A stretch of 64,000 bases of DNA from Meiothermus sp. (lineage in GTDB: Bacteria > Deinococcota > Deinococci > Deinococcales > Thermaceae), in NCBI RefSeq assembly GCF_026004055.1, contig NZ_BPIJ01000002.1:435803-499802 (forward strand). Direction: 5' to 3'. A program made the translations under genes and the position numbers. Shown here piece after piece: positions 5,924-13,440 of the stretch. The notes under the pieces are model-generated. The model was not told the DNA's origin. It ran no database searches and saw only the letters and a program-made list of their open reading frames with translations. Position 1 is the stretch's first letter. The number at the start of each line of letters is the position of its first letter.

Positions 5924-7279
5924 ATGAGCGAAGTCAAAATCACCCCGCTGGCCCGTCGTCTGGCGGAAGAGAACGGCATAGATTGGCGCCAAATTCAGGG
6001 CACCGGCCCCGACGGCACGGTGGTCGAACGGGATATTCTGGCCTTTTTAGCGCGGGTTATGGCCGGGGAGGTCAGCCTGCCGCCGGCCCCCGAAGAAACC
6101 GCCCCCCCGGCGGGTGTCATCCCCGATATGGCCCAGGCCCAGGTGGCTTTGCAGAAGGAAGGGGTCGAGCTGGGCGAGCTGGTACCCTCGGTTTCTGCGC
6201 CCCCATCTGCCTCGGCCTTGCCCACCCTGGAAGACATCGAGTTTGATCTCGACCTCGAGGCAGACACCCCCATCACCCCGGTACCCTCCGCCGCCGAGGC
6301 CTTCGAGGAGGTGCCCTCGCTGGCCCCCGAGCCCCCCGTTGTCCCGGACTTCGACGAACCCGAGCCGCTGGTGGCCGCCCCGCCCCTACCCACACTCCAG
6401 TGGGAGGAGCCGGAACCCCTGCCCTCTCCTGTGCCCCCCAACCCCGAGCTGGCCGATTTGCCGCCCCTCCCCACCGAGACCGACCTCGAGCCCCCCAGCA
6501 GCCCCAAGCTAATTTGGGAAACCCAAGAGGTCACGATAGCCCCCGAGACGCCCGCCCCCTCACCCGCCCCCCTGGAAGCGGGCATGAGTTTCGGCAACAT
6601 CCCCGAACCGCTGGAGACCCCGCCCGTTGCATCCGTGGAGCAGATACCACAGGCACCCTCGGTGGAAGAGCTTGCGCCTCCTCCGCCAGCCGAGCCGTTA
6701 ACACCCCCTGGGCCCGAACCCACGGTAGCGCCCCCCATTGCGCCCGTAACCCCACCCCTTACAGCCACCGGGCTGGCGGCCTCCCCTGTCGCGGAAGCTG
6801 CCCCCAGTCCCAAAATGCTGCGGGTGCAGGCCTGGCAACGCCTGGTGCAGATTGGGCCGGCCCAGGACGCTGCCTTGACCCTGAGCGAGGCCTGGCATAT
6901 GGAGGTGGGGCTGGACGCCCTGCTCTACCGCGCGGCAGACAAAGCCCTGTCCGACACCCAAACCCCCTTGCGCCCCACCAAGGGCCGCCTCGAGGGCGAC
7001 CAACTCCAGAGCCTGCGGGTGGCCCCCGCCCAGTCGCTGCGGGGTGCGCTGGACTCCTTGCGCATGGCCTCCGACCCCGCCGAAGGGTTGGTGGTGCTCT
7101 CGCTGGTAGACAGCGCCTTCGATCAGGTGATCTTCCCCGGCGCCTCCACCCTCACCCTGGGCCGGGCCACCGAGGGCCGGGCTCTGCTCACCCTGAGCGG
7201 GGAGATGCACCCCGACCTGGCCGGCAACCTCCTGGAGCGGGTGGCGTACTACCTCGAGCGCCCCATTTTGCTGGCCTAA
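5924..7279 (+). CDS. Protein with E3-binding (peripheral subunit-binding) domain, Pro-rich linker and degenerate E2-like tail
   Basis: Residues 1-45 (ITPLARRLAEENGIDW, IQGTGPDGTVVERDILAFL) are a clear peripheral subunit-binding domain, the module by which 2-oxoacid dehydrogenase E2 holds E1 or E3. Residues about 55-300 are a Pro/Glu/Ala-rich, probably disordered linker. Residues about 305-451 resemble a shrunken E2 acyltransferase core (LYRAADKALSDTQTPL, FPGASTLTLGRATEGRALL, LLERVAYYLERPILL). The HxxxDG active site is missing; the matching stretch reads GEMHPDLAG. There is no lipoyl domain. It may be an assembly or docking factor for a dehydrogenase complex, but no such genes are adjacent. 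The function is not known to me. Confidence 0.75.
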   Translation: MSEVKITPLARRLAEENGIDWRQIQGTGPDGTVVERDILAFLARVMAGEVSLPPAPEETAPPAGVIPDMAQAQVALQKEGVELGELVPSVSAPPSASALPTLEDIEFDLDLEADTPITPVPSAAEAFEEVPSLAPEPPVVPDFDEPEPLVAAPPLPTLQWEEPEPLPSPVPPNPELADLPPLPTETDLEPPSSPKLIWETQEVTIAPETPAPSPAPLEAGMSFGNIPEPLETPPVASVEQIPQAPSVEELAPPPPAEPLTPPGPEPTVAPPIAPVTPPLTATGLAASPVAEAAPSPKMLRVQAWQRLVQIGPAQDAALTLSEAWHMEVGLDALLYRAADKALSDTQTPLRPTKGRLEGDQLQSLRVAPAQSLRGALDSLRMASDPAEGLVVLSLVDSAFDQVIFPGASTLTLGRATEGRALLTLSGEMHPDLAGNLLERVAYYLERPILLA

Positions 7280-7347
7280 AGCTTGGTAGTCTGCTTTACC
7301 CCCTGGGGCAGGAAGCTACATCTTGAAAAACCGAATCACCAAACCTC

Positions 7348-7374
7348 GAGCCCCAGCGGAAGGGGCTCAGTTTT
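7348..7374 (+). terminator. Intrinsic terminator after the E3-binding-domain gene
   Basis: GAGCCCC (7348-7354) and GGGGCTC (7362-7368) form a stem followed by AGTTTT. The stem overlaps the stop codon of the convergent gene, so it may serve both strands. Confidence 0.6.
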
Positions 7375-8644
7375 GCGGCCTGCAGCCCGTACGAACCGTC
7401 ACCCCTCTGGCAACGAAAGACCCTACCCCACCACCAAAACGCCAGGTGTAGATGTTGTTGCTGTAAACCAGTTCGGGTGTGGTTTGTACTAGGCCTAAAG
7501 TCTGGAAGGCGTTATCGTAGAAAACCTGCACCTGATTCCCACTGACCCAGTTGACAACCAATCGTCCTCCCTCACATACATAGGTGATCCGCCCTGAAGG
7601 CACTGCGGGTACCGGCACTACGATGGGCGGCTGTGGCTGGGGCGGCGTGAAGGCTACCAAACTGGCAAAAACGTTGGTCACCCGACCCGCCTGTACCACT
7701 ACCGAGGTGCGGAAGTCTTGATAACCCCTTAGCCGAAGCACAACGGTGTAGCGCCCAGGCCGCAGGGTGAGGTTGAGGGGGGTATTGCCCACCACCCGGC
7801 CATCTATCAAGACCTGAGCCCCGCTCGGATTGGAGCTGACAGCCAGGGTGCCGGTGGCCGGGGCCTCGGGTTGCAAGTTGGCAAATACTCGGAAGGTGCC
7901 AGCACCGGGGATGTTGACATTGGTTCGGTAGGTCTGGTAGCCCAAGCGGCGCAGCTCAACAGTGTAGTTGCCAGGGTTCAGGCTGAAGGTGGCCGGGGTG
8001 CGGCCTCGCAATAGGCCGTTGATAAGGATGTCGGCCCCACTGGGATTGGAGTCTATCACCAGGGTACCCAAGGCCGGAGGCGGGGGTGGAGGAGCCACCA
8101 CTTGTTGCGCGATGTAATACGCTTCGTCGCTTACCCAATCCTGTTGAGGAATGGGCGTAACCACAATAGACAGAGAGCGGGCCAGGTTGTCAAAGCCCTG
8201 GATGCGGGCCCGCCCGGTTTGAATGTCCACAATTTCCGATACATCGAGCGGGCGGCGGCTGGCCACCGCCAGCACTCGATCCTGGCCTGCCGGTGGTTCT
8301 ACGTTGAAACTGTACCGCGCACCCGGGCTAGGGAAGCTGCGAACTTCGCCTGCAGCTAGTAAGTTGTTTTGTTCAAAAGCGTTTGGCAAGATACCGCTGA
8401 TCTGGCCCAGCGAGTTAACGCTAAACAAATATACGTAAGCCGGTTGGGTAACCGATACGCTGATGACGATGGGCTCGCCAAACTGGTAAACTGGATTGCC
8501 AGTCTTTCCAGGGTCTTTGTCTACCCATACCCGCACCTGAAGGTCAGAGGGGGGGTTAGGGTTGACGATAATAGATTGGGGCCGAAGCTGTGCCATTGCT
8601 GCAGCAATCACAAAAGCTAATATCAGGGTTATAGTTCGGTTCAT
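7367..8644 (-). CDS. Secreted surface protein: DUF4384-like, two PEGA domains, MliC-like C-terminus
   Basis: It has 425 residues. A signal peptide (MNRTITLILAFVIAAAMAQ) is followed by a DUF4384-like domain at about 35-140 (GEPIVISVSVTQPAYVYLFS, RVLAVASRRPLD). Two PEGA repeats follow at about 193-260 (GTLVIDSNPSGADILINGLL) and 265-330 (GTLAVSSNPSGAQVLIDGRV). A C-terminal domain at about 350-420 (ITYVCEGGRLVVNW, VQVFYDNAFQTL, YTWRFGGGVGSF) closely matches the small lipoprotein encoded at 9345. PEGA domains are typical of S-layer and cell-envelope proteins. The C-terminal domain looks like the MliC lysozyme-inhibitor fold but without its SGxxY motif. The start is supported by GAGGTG upstream. 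The role is unknown, presumably at the cell surface. Confidence 0.8.
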   Translation of the reverse strand: MNRTITLILAFVIAAAMAQLRPQSIIVNPNPPSDLQVRVWVDKDPGKTGNPVYQFGEPIVISVSVTQPAYVYLFSVNSLGQISGILPNAFEQNNLLAAGEVRSFPSPGARYSFNVEPPAGQDRVLAVASRRPLDVSEIVDIQTGRARIQGFDNLARSLSIVVTPIPQQDWVSDEAYYIAQQVVAPPPPPPALGTLVIDSNPSGADILINGLLRGRTPATFSLNPGNYTVELRRLGYQTYRTNVNIPGAGTFRVFANLQPEAPATGTLAVSSNPSGAQVLIDGRVVGNTPLNLTLRPGRYTVVLRLRGYQDFRTSVVVQAGRVTNVFASLVAFTPPQPQPPIVVPVPAVPSGRITYVCEGGRLVVNWVSGNQVQVFYDNAFQTLGLVQTTPELVYSNNIYTWRFGGGVGSFVARGVTVRTGCRPQN

Positions 8645-8802
8645 CTTTACACCTCAAAGATCCTTGCTCTCTAGGCTATACTTCTTTACCTATTCAGTCT
8701 ATCAGCAGTTTCTTAACCTCCTTCGAGGATGCCGTCTTTAGCATCACTTAAACTTTTCACCAGCGTAATTTCAAAACCAAACCCGTGTGGTACTCTAGAA
8801 CC

Positions 8803-9318
8803 ATGAGACCCATAAAGCCTTTTTATTTTTTGGCTGTTCTGATGCTTGCTTTTGGATTATCGGGCTGCATAATAGTTGCAGGAGGACTTCAAATATCTAA
8901 TGCAAGTTTTGCAACCAGCTACTGGGATGGAAACGCAAGTAATCCCACCTATTACATCTGCGACAATAAAACAACCCTAGTCGGTTACACCTTCCGCTAC
9001 AATGACCCAACCTTGTTAGAAGGATGGGACTCTTACCTCAGAGGTCTTGCCAGTGGAGGCATAGCCGGTTCTGTTTCATTTAACGCCAACGATCCCCGTA
9101 ATGATACAACCTCCCGTACCGTCTCGGTAACTTACAATGTACCCGCCGGAACCGCCCCACTCCGGGCAACCCCGCAAACTATAAACATTACCCCTACGCC
9201 GGTTCCAAGCCCCTCGGTAATCGGCAGAACTTATGTTGAAGTCAGGGTGCGCTCAACCACTGGCGCTACCCGCACTCTCACCTTCGGCCCAGCCCTTGTG
9301 ATTGACAATTGCCCTTGA
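8803..9318 (+). CDS. Small lipoprotein of unknown function
   Basis: It has 171 residues from ATG 8803. The signal sequence ends in a lipobox (GLSGC, Cys near residue 22), so it is a predicted lipoprotein. The mature part is rich in Thr, Ser and Asn and looks beta-stranded (TYYICDNKTTLVGYTFRY, TYVEVRVRSTTGATRTLTF), with only two cysteines after the lipid Cys, which could form a disulfide. I do not recognise the family. TACTCT lies six bases before the ATG, suggesting a leaderless transcript. Base composition is visibly poorer in GC than neighbouring genes, a possible sign of transfer. The MliC-like lipoprotein gene follows 26 bases downstream and is probably cotranscribed. Confidence 0.7.
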   Translation: MRPIKPFYFLAVLMLAFGLSGCIIVAGGLQISNASFATSYWDGNASNPTYYICDNKTTLVGYTFRYNDPTLLEGWDSYLRGLASGGIAGSVSFNANDPRNDTTSRTVSVTYNVPAGTAPLRATPQTINITPTPVPSPSVIGRTYVEVRVRSTTGATRTLTFGPALVIDNCP

Positions 9319-9344
9319 AAACTGTCCAGCACCCTAGGTGAAAT

Positions 9345-9698
9345 ATGATGCGCACCCTAATACTTTCAAGTCTTTTGCTGGCTCTTTCTTCCTGCATCTT
9401 ATTGGTTGATGACGAGCCTCGGCAAATCACCGTAACCGACCCGCAGCCTGTGCCTATTCCCTCCCCCAGGCCCGATACCTATACCTATAGCTGCAATGGC
9501 GGGCGTTTGGTGGTTAGTTACGTGGACAACAACACCGTGCGGGTATTCTATGACAACGCCTTTCAAACCCTTACCTTGACCCGCGTCACTCCGTTACGCA
9601 CATACGTAGGTGGGTCTTTTGTTTGGGAGCTGGATCGCAATGGTCTTGGTACCTTCCGGGTAGGCGGCACCCTGGTGCGCTCCAACTGTCGCATCTAA
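9345..9698 (+). CDS. Small lipoprotein with MliC-like domain
   Basis: It has 117 residues. A signal peptide has a lipobox (LALSSC), followed by a short Pro-rich spacer (DPQPVPIPSPRPD) and one beta domain. That domain (YSCNGGRLVVSYVDN, VRVFYDNAFQTLTL, GGSFVWELDR, TLVRSNC) parallels E. coli MliC (VYDN near the middle, VFW, NC at the end). The SGxxY inhibitory motif of MliC is replaced by TPLRTY, so lysozyme inhibition is doubtful. The same domain forms the C-terminus of the divergent PEGA protein at 7367-8644, so the cluster looks like one functional unit. Tandem ATG codons at 9345 and 9348 are both possible starts. A terminator follows. Confidence 0.7.
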   Translation: MMRTLILSSLLLALSSCILLVDDEPRQITVTDPQPVPIPSPRPDTYTYSCNGGRLVVSYVDNNTVRVFYDNAFQTLTLTRVTPLRTYVGGSFVWELDRNGLGTFRVGGTLVRSNCRI

Positions 9699-9709
9699 GG
9701 CCCCCGTGA

Positions 9710-9744
9710 CCTCGAGCCTTCATGGGGCTCGAGGTTCTCCTTTT
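9710..9744 (+). terminator. Intrinsic terminator after the lipoprotein pair
   Basis: CCTCGAGCC (9710-9718) and GGCTCGAGG (9726-9734) form a perfect stem with a TTCTCCTTTT tail. The stem is built from two copies of the CTCGAG palindrome that abounds in this genome. Confidence 0.85.
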
Positions 9745-9794
9745 GCGGATTAGTTTACAATCTTTGTAAGTTTTTCTCTGGATGATAGGGTTCT

Positions 9795-10358
9795 ATGGAA
9801 TGGCTTACCCATCCCTGGCCCTGGTATGTGGCGGGCCCCCTGATCGGCCTGACCGTGCCCCTCTTGCTTCTCATCGGCAACCGTCGCTTTGGCATCTCCT
9901 CCTCGCTGCGGCATGTGTGCGCTGCGCTGGGCAGCCGGCTGCCCTTCTTCCAGTACAACTGGCGGGCCGAAAGCTGGAACCTGGCCTTTGTGCTGGGCAT
10001 TGTGCTAGGGGGGTTTGTGGCCGGGGTGCTCTGGGCCAACCCCAACCCGGTGCAGCTTAGCCCCCAGACCACCGCCGCCCTCCAGCAGATGGGGGTTTCG
10101 GCGGACTCGGGTTTTTTGCCCCCCGAGCTTTTTTCCTGGCAGGCGGTGCTGAGCCTGCCGGGGGCGTTGTTTTTGTTGCTGGGCGGGTTCTTGATTGGCT
10201 TCGGAGCCCGCTGGGCGGCAGGGTGTACCTCGGGGCACTCCATTACCGGGCTGGCCGCGCTGCAACTGCCCTCGCTGCTGGCCACTCTGGGTTTCTTTGT
10301 GGGCGGGCTCATTTCGGCCCACCTGCTTTTGCCCTGGTTTCTCTTTTGGCTGAGGTGA
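9795..10358 (+). CDS. YeeE/YedE-family membrane protein, first half
   Basis: It has 187 residues and about four hydrophobic segments. It carries the family signature GARWAAGCTSGHSITGLA with its conserved cysteine. YeeE/YedE (DUF395, TsuA-like) proteins carry thiosulfate or other sulfur species across the inner membrane, using conserved cysteines. Many bacteria encode the transporter as two half-size proteins, which fits this gene and the one three bases downstream. No rhodanese or TusA gene adjoins to narrow the substrate. The start at 9795 is chosen over the out-of-frame ATG at 9782 because only this frame gives a membrane protein of the family. Confidence 0.85.
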   Translation: MEWLTHPWPWYVAGPLIGLTVPLLLLIGNRRFGISSSLRHVCAALGSRLPFFQYNWRAESWNLAFVLGIVLGGFVAGVLWANPNPVQLSPQTTAALQQMGVSADSGFLPPELFSWQAVLSLPGALFLLLGGFLIGFGARWAAGCTSGHSITGLAALQLPSLLATLGFFVGGLISAHLLLPWFLFWLR

Positions 10359-12799: not shown

Positions 12800-13201
12800 C
12801 TAGGAGGGAAGCCGCTTGGGGGTTCGTTTGCGGAGCTTGCCATCCAGGCTGGCAAGGCCCTCCCCTGAGGCCTGGGAACAACTGAGTAAAAAAGCATCTA
12901 CAAAGCTCAGCCCTCCTCTGGCAGCCTCGTTTAAAGCCTGCCGCACGGCCTCCTCGTCCAGGAGTTCCACCCCCTCTCGATCCAGCAGCTCGAGTAGCGC
13001 TAGCGCTGCTTCCCCCTTGCTGACCCGGTAAAAAGAGGTCAGGGTGTAGAAAGCTTCGGCCACTACCAAAGGATGGGTGCGGAGCACATAGGCCCCTTGC
13101 TCGGCTTTTTGGAAGACCTCGAGGGCTTTTTCTGCCAGGTTGTCCGGCTGTCCGGTGAGAAGACGCAGAATCAAGCTGGTGTCCAGCCAGTAGCGCCTCA
13201 C
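12800..13201 (-). CDS. vapC: PIN-domain ribonuclease toxin (VapC-like)
   Basis: A single PIN domain of 133 residues should cleave RNA using Mg ions. The acidic catalytic residues are all visible: YWLDTSLIL (Asp), PLVVAEAFYTL (Glu), LSFVDAFLLS (Asp) and GLASLDGKL (Asp). I chose GTG 13201 because it forms a GTGA overlap with the stop of the antitoxin gene and has AGGGGAG a few bases upstream; an in-frame GTG at 13219 would add six residues. The overlap implies coupled translation with the VapB-like partner. Confidence 0.85.
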   Translation of the reverse strand: MRRYWLDTSLILRLLTGQPDNLAEKALEVFQKAEQGAYVLRTHPLVVAEAFYTLTSFYRVSKGEAALALLELLDREGVELLDEEAVRQALNEAARGGLSFVDAFLLSCSQASGEGLASLDGKLRKRTPKRLPS

Positions 13202-13440
13202 CTCTCCCCTCTGGCCCACGCTACCTCCTTAGCTCTGGCTTCCTCTTCCTCCCCGGGATAGGCCCGACCCCCCAACCGCCCAAACAACAACGACAGGGGC
13301 ACCCCTCGCCTTGGCTTTAGGATCACCTCATCTCCCCGCAGCTCAAAGACCACCTCTTCCCCAGGGGAAAGCCGCAGGGCATTCCGTATGGATTTTGGAA
13401 GGGTGATCTGACCTTTACTACTTATGCGACTCTTTACCAT
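13198..13440 (-). CDS. vapB: AbrB/MazE-type antitoxin of the VapBC pair
   Basis: It has 80 residues. The N-terminal half is a swapped-hairpin AbrB DNA-binding domain (SRISSKGQITLPKSIRNALR, LSPGEEVVFELRGDEVILKP). The acidic tail (YPGEEEEARAKEVAWARGER) should block the toxin. It lies immediately upstream of vapC with a GTGA overlap, the standard order. The AbrB domain probably represses the pair's own promoter; the AT-rich stretch just upstream (13440-13480, with TACC/GGTA arms) is the likely site. Confidence 0.85.
   Translation of the reverse strand: MVKSRISSKGQITLPKSIRNALRLSPGEEVVFELRGDEVILKPRRGVPLSLLFGRLGGRAYPGEEEEARAKEVAWARGER

Follow-up and report, generated by a model that had tools for sequence, protein, structure and literature searches.

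An MliC-type barrel shared by a DUF4384-PEGA protein and a linked lipoprotein in a putative variable envelope locus of Meiothermus

Background

MliC and PliC (PF09864, COG3895) are small exported lysozyme inhibitors, with structures that include YdhA/MliC (2f09), P. aeruginosa MliC (3f6z) and Salmonella PliC (3oe3). Lysozyme is recognised through two motifs, SxSGAxY and YxxxTKG (PMC5507604; this and the other papers named below are cited from excerpts of their text). Two other proteins have the same fold – the Neisseria adhesin complex protein (ACP; 5my7, 6gq4), an exported protein in which both motifs are missing, and Brucella PhiA (7dpy, 7dsg). A stretch of 64,000 nucleotides from a Meiothermus sp. 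genome (the window; NZ_BPIJ01000002.1, positions 435,803 to 499,802) has three adjacent genes, here called F, L and M, that are related in part to this family. F encodes an exported protein with a DUF4384 domain and PEGA repeats, L and M encode lipoproteins, and the C-terminal domain of F and most of M are predicted MliC-type barrels. Between two related genomes, the F barrel domain, L and M have been replaced together as one block, with the DUF4384-PEGA scaffold of F and the flanking genes retained.

F and M have in common with MliC and PliC the barrel, the first and last Cys, the Y-x-C start and the Trp before the second motif, and M is a lipoprotein like MliC. Unlike MliC and PliC, they have no Ser-Gly and no Lys in the motif columns (37/37 domains), no Pfam MliC match in the window, one copy fused to DUF4384-PEGA, and linkage to a second lipoprotein gene. 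ACP resembles F and M in its fold, its export and its missing motifs. Its loop 4 is longer by three residues, and the alignment shows no such lengthening at the F/M motif columns; the Pfam Nm-ACP family matched one of 18 members weakly (E 0.054). M has a lipobox, and ACP none that is recognisable (PMC5507604). The model of M has the same fold as PhiA. We know of no fusion and no partner lipoprotein for PhiA.

Stand-alone DUF4384-PEGA proteins of Thermales are similar to the first ca. 350 residues of F, and the paralogues inspected lack an MliC-fold domain. In polymorphic cassettes of the contact-dependent inhibition (CDI) and Rhs types, a C-terminal domain is swapped together with the downstream genes. 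The layout of F is comparable, with a conserved N-terminus, a replaced C-terminal domain and neighbours replaced along with it, in one clean case (genomes G020 and G023). Unlike those cassettes, F has no toxin domain, and the C-terminus that is swapped has a homologue in M, the neighbour swapped with it. A literature search found nothing naming both Meiothermus and MliC; one listed paper pairs Meiothermus with a lysozyme inhibitor, and another pairs MliC with Deinococcus. In the 16 papers listed for DUF4384 and PEGA, a fusion to MliC is absent from titles and from the openings of abstracts, and the excerpted text of a paper on Meiothermus ruber vesicles (PMC8674399) mentions neither PEGA nor DUF4384.

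The F, L and M genes

The genes and their domains in the window are:

7367..8644, minus strand: F gene, open reading frame (ORF) for an exported DUF4384-PEGA-PEGA-MliC-fold protein of 425 amino acids
8249..8491, minus strand: DUF4384 domain of F, residues 52–132 (PF14326, 94.2 bits)
7868..8065, minus strand: PEGA repeat 1 of F (PF08308; approximate limits, placed from the sequence)
7658..7852, minus strand: PEGA repeat 2 of F, residues 265–329 (best PF08308 stretch)
7370..7585, minus strand: predicted MliC-fold domain of F, C-terminal residues 354–425 (homology to M, profile match, PF09864 in relatives)
8803..9318, plus strand: L gene, lipoprotein of 171 amino acids (lipobox LSGC, two further conserved Cys)
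9345..9698, plus strand: M gene, free lipoprotein of 117 amino acids with a predicted MliC fold (lipobox LSSC)
9483..9695, plus strand: predicted MliC-fold domain of M, residues 47–117 (eight-stranded model, structural match to PliC 3oe3)

The F and M ORFs are found where the original prediction, made from the sequence alone, had placed them, and the strands, which it did not mention, are opposite. DUF4384 and PEGA, also predicted, both score above the Pfam cut-off in F, PEGA in two stretches (124.3 bits). L is the single lipoprotein gene that had been noticed between F and M, and 26 bp separate its stop codon from the start of M. F has a signal peptide with no lipobox, and its residues 1–45 include no Cys. 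The lipobox is present in M and in L in all 19 genomes that have the trio. These signals indicate export and lipidation, and the three proteins may be located at the surface.

A domain common to F and M

When the whole genome was searched with M, the C-terminus of F was matched at E 2.1e-19, with 49% identity over 85 residues (M 32–116), and nothing else was matched at E≤10. The shared strings that first drew attention to the pair are all present – FYDNAFQTL (at 375 in F and 68 in M), GGRLVV (359 and 52) and the last Cys (421 and 115). Six of the nine FYDNAFQTL codons differ synonymously between the two genes, which indicates that their common ancestry is old and under constraint rather than the result of a recent copy; recent gene conversion between F and M of the window is rejected on the same grounds.

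Direct scans of F, M and L against Pfam and NCBIfam gave no match above any cut-off for the shared domain or for L. Lesser matches, such as those to GPR15L, ATP-synt_J and MrkDrd (best E 0.0053), are regarded as chance. PF09864 matches neither F nor M of the window and is above cut-off in the F domains of seven relatives, two of which pass only with neighbouring matches in frame. A profile of the F/M family aligns over its full length with the MliC proteins of Meiothermus and its relatives (hhalign probability 95, E 4e-8), and its best match in the Protein Data Bank is E. coli YdhA/MliC (E 0.001). The domains of window F and M are clearly homologous to MliC, yet they are not classed as members of PF09864.

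An AlphaFold2 model of mature M, made from an alignment of 18 window and Meiothermus-type sequences, has eight strands, with a mean predicted local distance difference test (pLDDT) score of 85.8 and block means of 91–97 in the domain. A Foldseek search with this model gave no E below 0.001 and probabilities up to 1.00 for MliC/PliC chains. In a structural second look (VIA) run on the chains from that search, the best match was PliC 3oe3 (Z 12.0, root-mean-square deviation 1.6 over 73 residues), followed by ACP 5my7 (Z 11.3). The top nine chains are all MliC, PliC, ACP or PhiA (Z 9.8–12.0, with PhiA at 10.9 and 10.3 and both YdhA and P. aeruginosa MliC at 9.8), and the tenth row is at Z 8.3. 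M is predicted to have the eight-stranded beta-barrel fold of MliC and PliC, and the C-terminal domain of F is assigned the same fold by homology to M. The predicted resemblance to MliC is upheld by this model, by the profile match to MliC of the same group and by PF09864 in the F domains of the seven relatives.

Lysozyme-contact motifs

The motifs were compared in an alignment of 37 F and M domains from 19 genomes with 10 MliC rows, 8 from Meiothermus and 2 from other families. The Ser of the first motif is found in 0/37 F/M domains and 10/10 MliC rows, the Gly likewise in 0/37 and 10/10, and the Lys of the second motif in 0/37 (with Arg in 1/37) and 9/10. The first Cys, the Trp and an aromatic residue at the motif Tyr are conserved in all 37, and the last Cys in all 36 untruncated domains; the conservation of the two Cys predicts a disulphide between the first and last strands. 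In the window, the position of SGxxY is occupied by TPLRTY in M and TPELVY in F, a reading of the original prediction that the joint alignment bears out. An SGxxY string is found elsewhere in 11 of the 37 domains, and in neither F nor M of the window.

The window genome also has a separate exported MliC (G000:C1:759093-759257; L060 2016-2336) in which the motifs read EAASGVKY and WWVKG. SGVKY and WW are conserved in all 11 MliC proteins read from Meiothermus, this one included, and two have Arg for Lys. Because motif-keeping MliC is present in the same genus, the missing Lys is particular to the F/M lineage, and the missing Ser-Gly nearly so.

Absence of the motifs need not mean that the domains are inactive, as ACP shares the fold and inhibits lysozyme with neither motif (PMC5507604). 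The non-inhibitory role raised in the original prediction is accordingly tentative. ACP is thought to use a loop 4 that is longer by three residues. Within the F/M motif columns the only insertion is a single residue in G023_F, and an insertion of three residues directly follows the motif in the type B M proteins of four species (G007, G008, G011, G013).

Distribution and replacement of the block

Of 111 genomes of the order, 19 have the F/M domain. They belong to two genera, with 17 of the 18 genomes listed for genus g1 and two of genus g4. There are 37 such domains, two in each of 18 genomes and a single one in G004, whose contig stops within F. Contig ends also cut F in G001, G012 and G017; in G001 and G012 the MliC domain and the N-terminal part of F are on separate contigs, and the G004 contig has just 58 residues of F. 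Homologues of the DUF4384-PEGA part (the first ca. 350 residues of F) are present in all 61 genomes searched. Six C-termini of these paralogues were inspected, from 13 loci tried, and end in PEGA-like repeats with no MliC-fold domain.

L and F accompany M at the locus in 19/19 M-bearing genomes, through three gene orders. Twelve genomes have L-M-F, two have F-L-M (G020, G023), and in five F is divergent from L-M (G000, the window genome, and G001, G004, G006, G017). The check proposed with the original prediction thus gave a conserved neighbourhood as well as an MliC-type fold. In the fetched loci, where absence of a neighbour can reflect a contig end, a gene for a protein with an E3-binding domain is near the module in 18/19 genomes, a gene presumed to encode an aminopeptidase-like protein in 12/19, and a sulphur-transport gene on the other flank in 10/19, the window included.

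The F domain, L and M each sort into the same three groups. Type A consists of G000, G006 and G020 (with G004 for L and M), type B of twelve genomes, and type C of G001, G017 and G023. Support for the F domain, L and M is 95/93, 100/99 and 83/77 in type A, and 100/99, 91/87 and 100/98 in type C. The congeners G020 and G023, of different types at these genes, are sisters (100/99 to 100/100) in trees of the N-terminal part of F and of the aminopeptidase-like and E3-binding proteins. Forcing them together was rejected for the F domain (p 4e-7), for M (p 5e-4) and for L (p 0.009). Their proteins are 92% identical in the N-terminal part of F and 91% and 79% in two flank proteins, versus 44% in the F domain, 37% in L and 47% in M.

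The same boundary is seen in the DNA. Identity of G020 and G023 is 90% as far as the linker that precedes the F MliC domain and 86% from just behind M, while across the domain, L and M it is 33–57% over 1.33 kb (60-base windows, forced alignment). In a comparison of matches of at least 250 bases, the two genomes are collinear over ca. 30 kb and this block is the single gap that reaches 1 kb in each genome (1.33 and 1.25 kb); for the other gaps between listed matches, the shorter side does not exceed 0.37 kb. Synonymous divergence is 0.28–0.36 in the neighbours measured and saturated within the block, a sign of replacement rather than of fast evolution of the proteins. A gene-by-gene baseline of divergence proved unusable – many reciprocal matches were paralogues outside synteny, M was not recovered for G020/G023, and no gene of the locus was recovered for G008/G016.

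L has also been replaced by itself, with synonymous divergence (dS) of 1.14 between G013 and G016 and 1.30 between G011 and G013, versus 0.08–0.30 in the neighbours measured. A joint tree of two flank proteins, covering 12 of the 19 genomes and weak at several forks, rejects type B as one clade (p 0.006, with 7 of its 12 genomes) and G000 with G006 (p 0.019), as fits transfer of the module. What is new here is that, judging from these comparisons, the locus appears to exchange alleles between related genomes.

The tree of M and F domains does not split cleanly in two, and holding all F domains as one clade was rejected by the approximately unbiased (AU) test (p 0.012; tree of 36 rows, with G017_F omitted because it is cut by a contig end). 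Within a type, M and F domains are on average 51% (A), 61% (B) and 64% (C) identical. Across types, identity is 46–49% for M domains and, for F domains, 57% between A and B, 51% between B and C and 44% between A and C. Repeated duplication, conversion or joint replacement would all fit this pattern, with ca. 70 columns giving no choice among them. The exchange of domains proposed in the original prediction is supported in another form, in two respects – the F domain, L and M are replaced as a block between lineages, and M and F are not cleanly separated – and fails for a recent swap between F and M of the window, as the codons show.

Other features of the locus

The L protein may have an immunoglobulin-like beta sandwich, a likeness limited to the common sandwich arrangement in its model. 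Profile comparison found no homology of L to the MliC domain (hhalign probability 0.4%), and Pfam and NCBIfam scans of relatives of L gave nothing above cut-off. Two features concern expression of the locus:

8645..8802, no strand: intergenic region between the divergent F and L genes, 158 bp, where promoters are presumed to lie
9708..9736, plus strand: possible terminator 3' of M with a 13-pair stem (one found versus a shuffle mean of 2.7, not above chance)

A promoter scan of 7250–9850 gave 3 matches, versus 1.6 in shuffled sequence, and none within 8645..8802.

The gene at 5924–7279 (plus strand) encodes a protein with an N-terminal E3-binding domain (PF02817, residues 4–39), a long Pro-rich stretch and a C-terminal part; a Pfam scan of this protein found no acyltransferase domain. 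At 12800–13440 (minus strand) are two small overlapping ORFs, which we take to resemble an AbrB-type antitoxin and a PIN-type toxin. The output for G002 and for G003 showed no counterpart of this pair at the locus.

Interpretation

A tentative reading, to which a probability of roughly 0.48 is assigned, is that F, L and M are one variable envelope recognition module built on a retooled MliC barrel. The barrels would keep the protein-binding role of the family, with a ligand other than c-type lysozyme. The barrel of F would be displayed on a PEGA stalk, M and L would sit in a membrane through their lipid, and the three products would act together, the specificity of the F barrel being matched to the L and M inherited with it. 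The partner would differ from strain to strain, and could for instance be a phage protein, a protein of a competitor or a peptidoglycan-active enzyme of foreign origin; this variation would favour exchange of the whole set by homologous recombination. A narrower form of this reading is improbable – that the stalked barrel, the lipid-anchored barrel and the fast-turning L make up a matched set for self/non-self recognition, swapped as sets between thermophile lineages because the right barrel needs the right L and M. To our knowledge there is no earlier case of a lysozyme-inhibitor fold serving as a polymorphic recognition module against wall enzymes of phages or competitors.

A number of observations weigh against the recognition module. 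Linkage alone would make the allele types of neighbours agree, so their concordance does not prove joint function, and the break inside F is clean in one genome pair only (G020/G023). The ratio of non-synonymous to synonymous divergence (dN/dS) is low, 0.00–0.36 where synonymous sites are unsaturated, with no sign of positive selection at the codon level. Likeness within types is not consistently higher, as type A M and F are 51% identical versus 57% for F of types A and B. Between G008 and G016, identity shifts from 81–83% to 94% across L (G008:C2 377586-378095); this seems to be a recombination edge within L, and may be an ordinary tract edge. F of G008 is split into two overlapping frames between DUF4384 and PEGA (L047 5497-6769), by a frameshift or an assembly error. 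G005, a fragmented assembly, has no M, and its F-type matches resemble the paralogues. The fold of L is uncertain, with a pLDDT of 77.3 and a best Z of 8.6 to unrelated sandwiches, and the lowest Foldseek E for the M model is to an unrelated alpha-xylosidase (0.10, versus 0.11 for PhiA and 0.13 for MliC). In viral contigs, 30 and 47 pattern matches were found and none was confirmed by tblastn, which leaves a link to phages without direct support. Finally, 8 of 18 F domains (G002, G003, G008, G009, G011, G013, G014 and G020) have a Ser-Gly in the loop of the first motif, displaced upstream by one or two residues (for example RSGAELVY). No M and neither domain of the window has this shifted Ser-Gly, which could be a remnant of the inhibitory motif or a displaced form of it; it lowers confidence in the module and raises that in lysozyme inhibition.

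The chief alternative, itself unlikely, is that the F and M barrels restrain the cell's own peptidoglycan-cleaving enzymes, such as lytic transglycosylases, with a contact surface rebuilt for the host enzyme. A free-living thermophile would hardly meet vertebrate lysozyme, and the genome encodes a protein of the SLT family (31.7 bits versus a Pfam cut-off of 21.3). PhiA, among the closest folds at Z 10.9, is termed a peptidoglycan hydrolase inhibitor (PMC12354254), and E. coli MliC has a partial inhibitory effect on MltA and MltB in vitro, though it is weak and no direct binding was detected (PMC10139938). A constant internal target fits block replacement and the additional turnover of L less well, and an MliC with both motifs is already encoded elsewhere in the genome.

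It is less probable again that a tandem duplication left linked paralogues, that the block replacements are neutral recombination, and that the trio has no joint function. Linked genes are inherited together in any case, recombination tracts are ordinary in competent bacteria, and both the low dN/dS and the differing gene orders agree with this account. The trio nevertheless stays linked through three gene orders in every M-bearing genome, and the block is the sole gap of its size in the collinear G020/G023 region.

That F and M are still c-type lysozyme inhibitors, through other contacts as in ACP or through the shifted Ser-Gly, is the least probable explanation – ACP as second structural match and the eight shifted F domains speak for it, while F and M of the window have neither Ser-Gly nor Lys, by alignment no lengthened loop like that of ACP is seen in the motif columns, and we know of no lysozyme-bearing host for these organisms.

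Conclusions

In this lineage the MliC fold is kept, the known blocking residues are absent, a fusion joins one copy to a repeat scaffold, and the copies are replaced in sets. With an ordinary MliC elsewhere in the same genome, the locus is a natural test of roles of the fold besides lysozyme inhibition, a question already posed by ACP and by the slight inhibition that E. coli MliC exerts on enzymes of its own cell (PMC10139938). F-L-M also marks a variable, putative envelope locus in Thermales.

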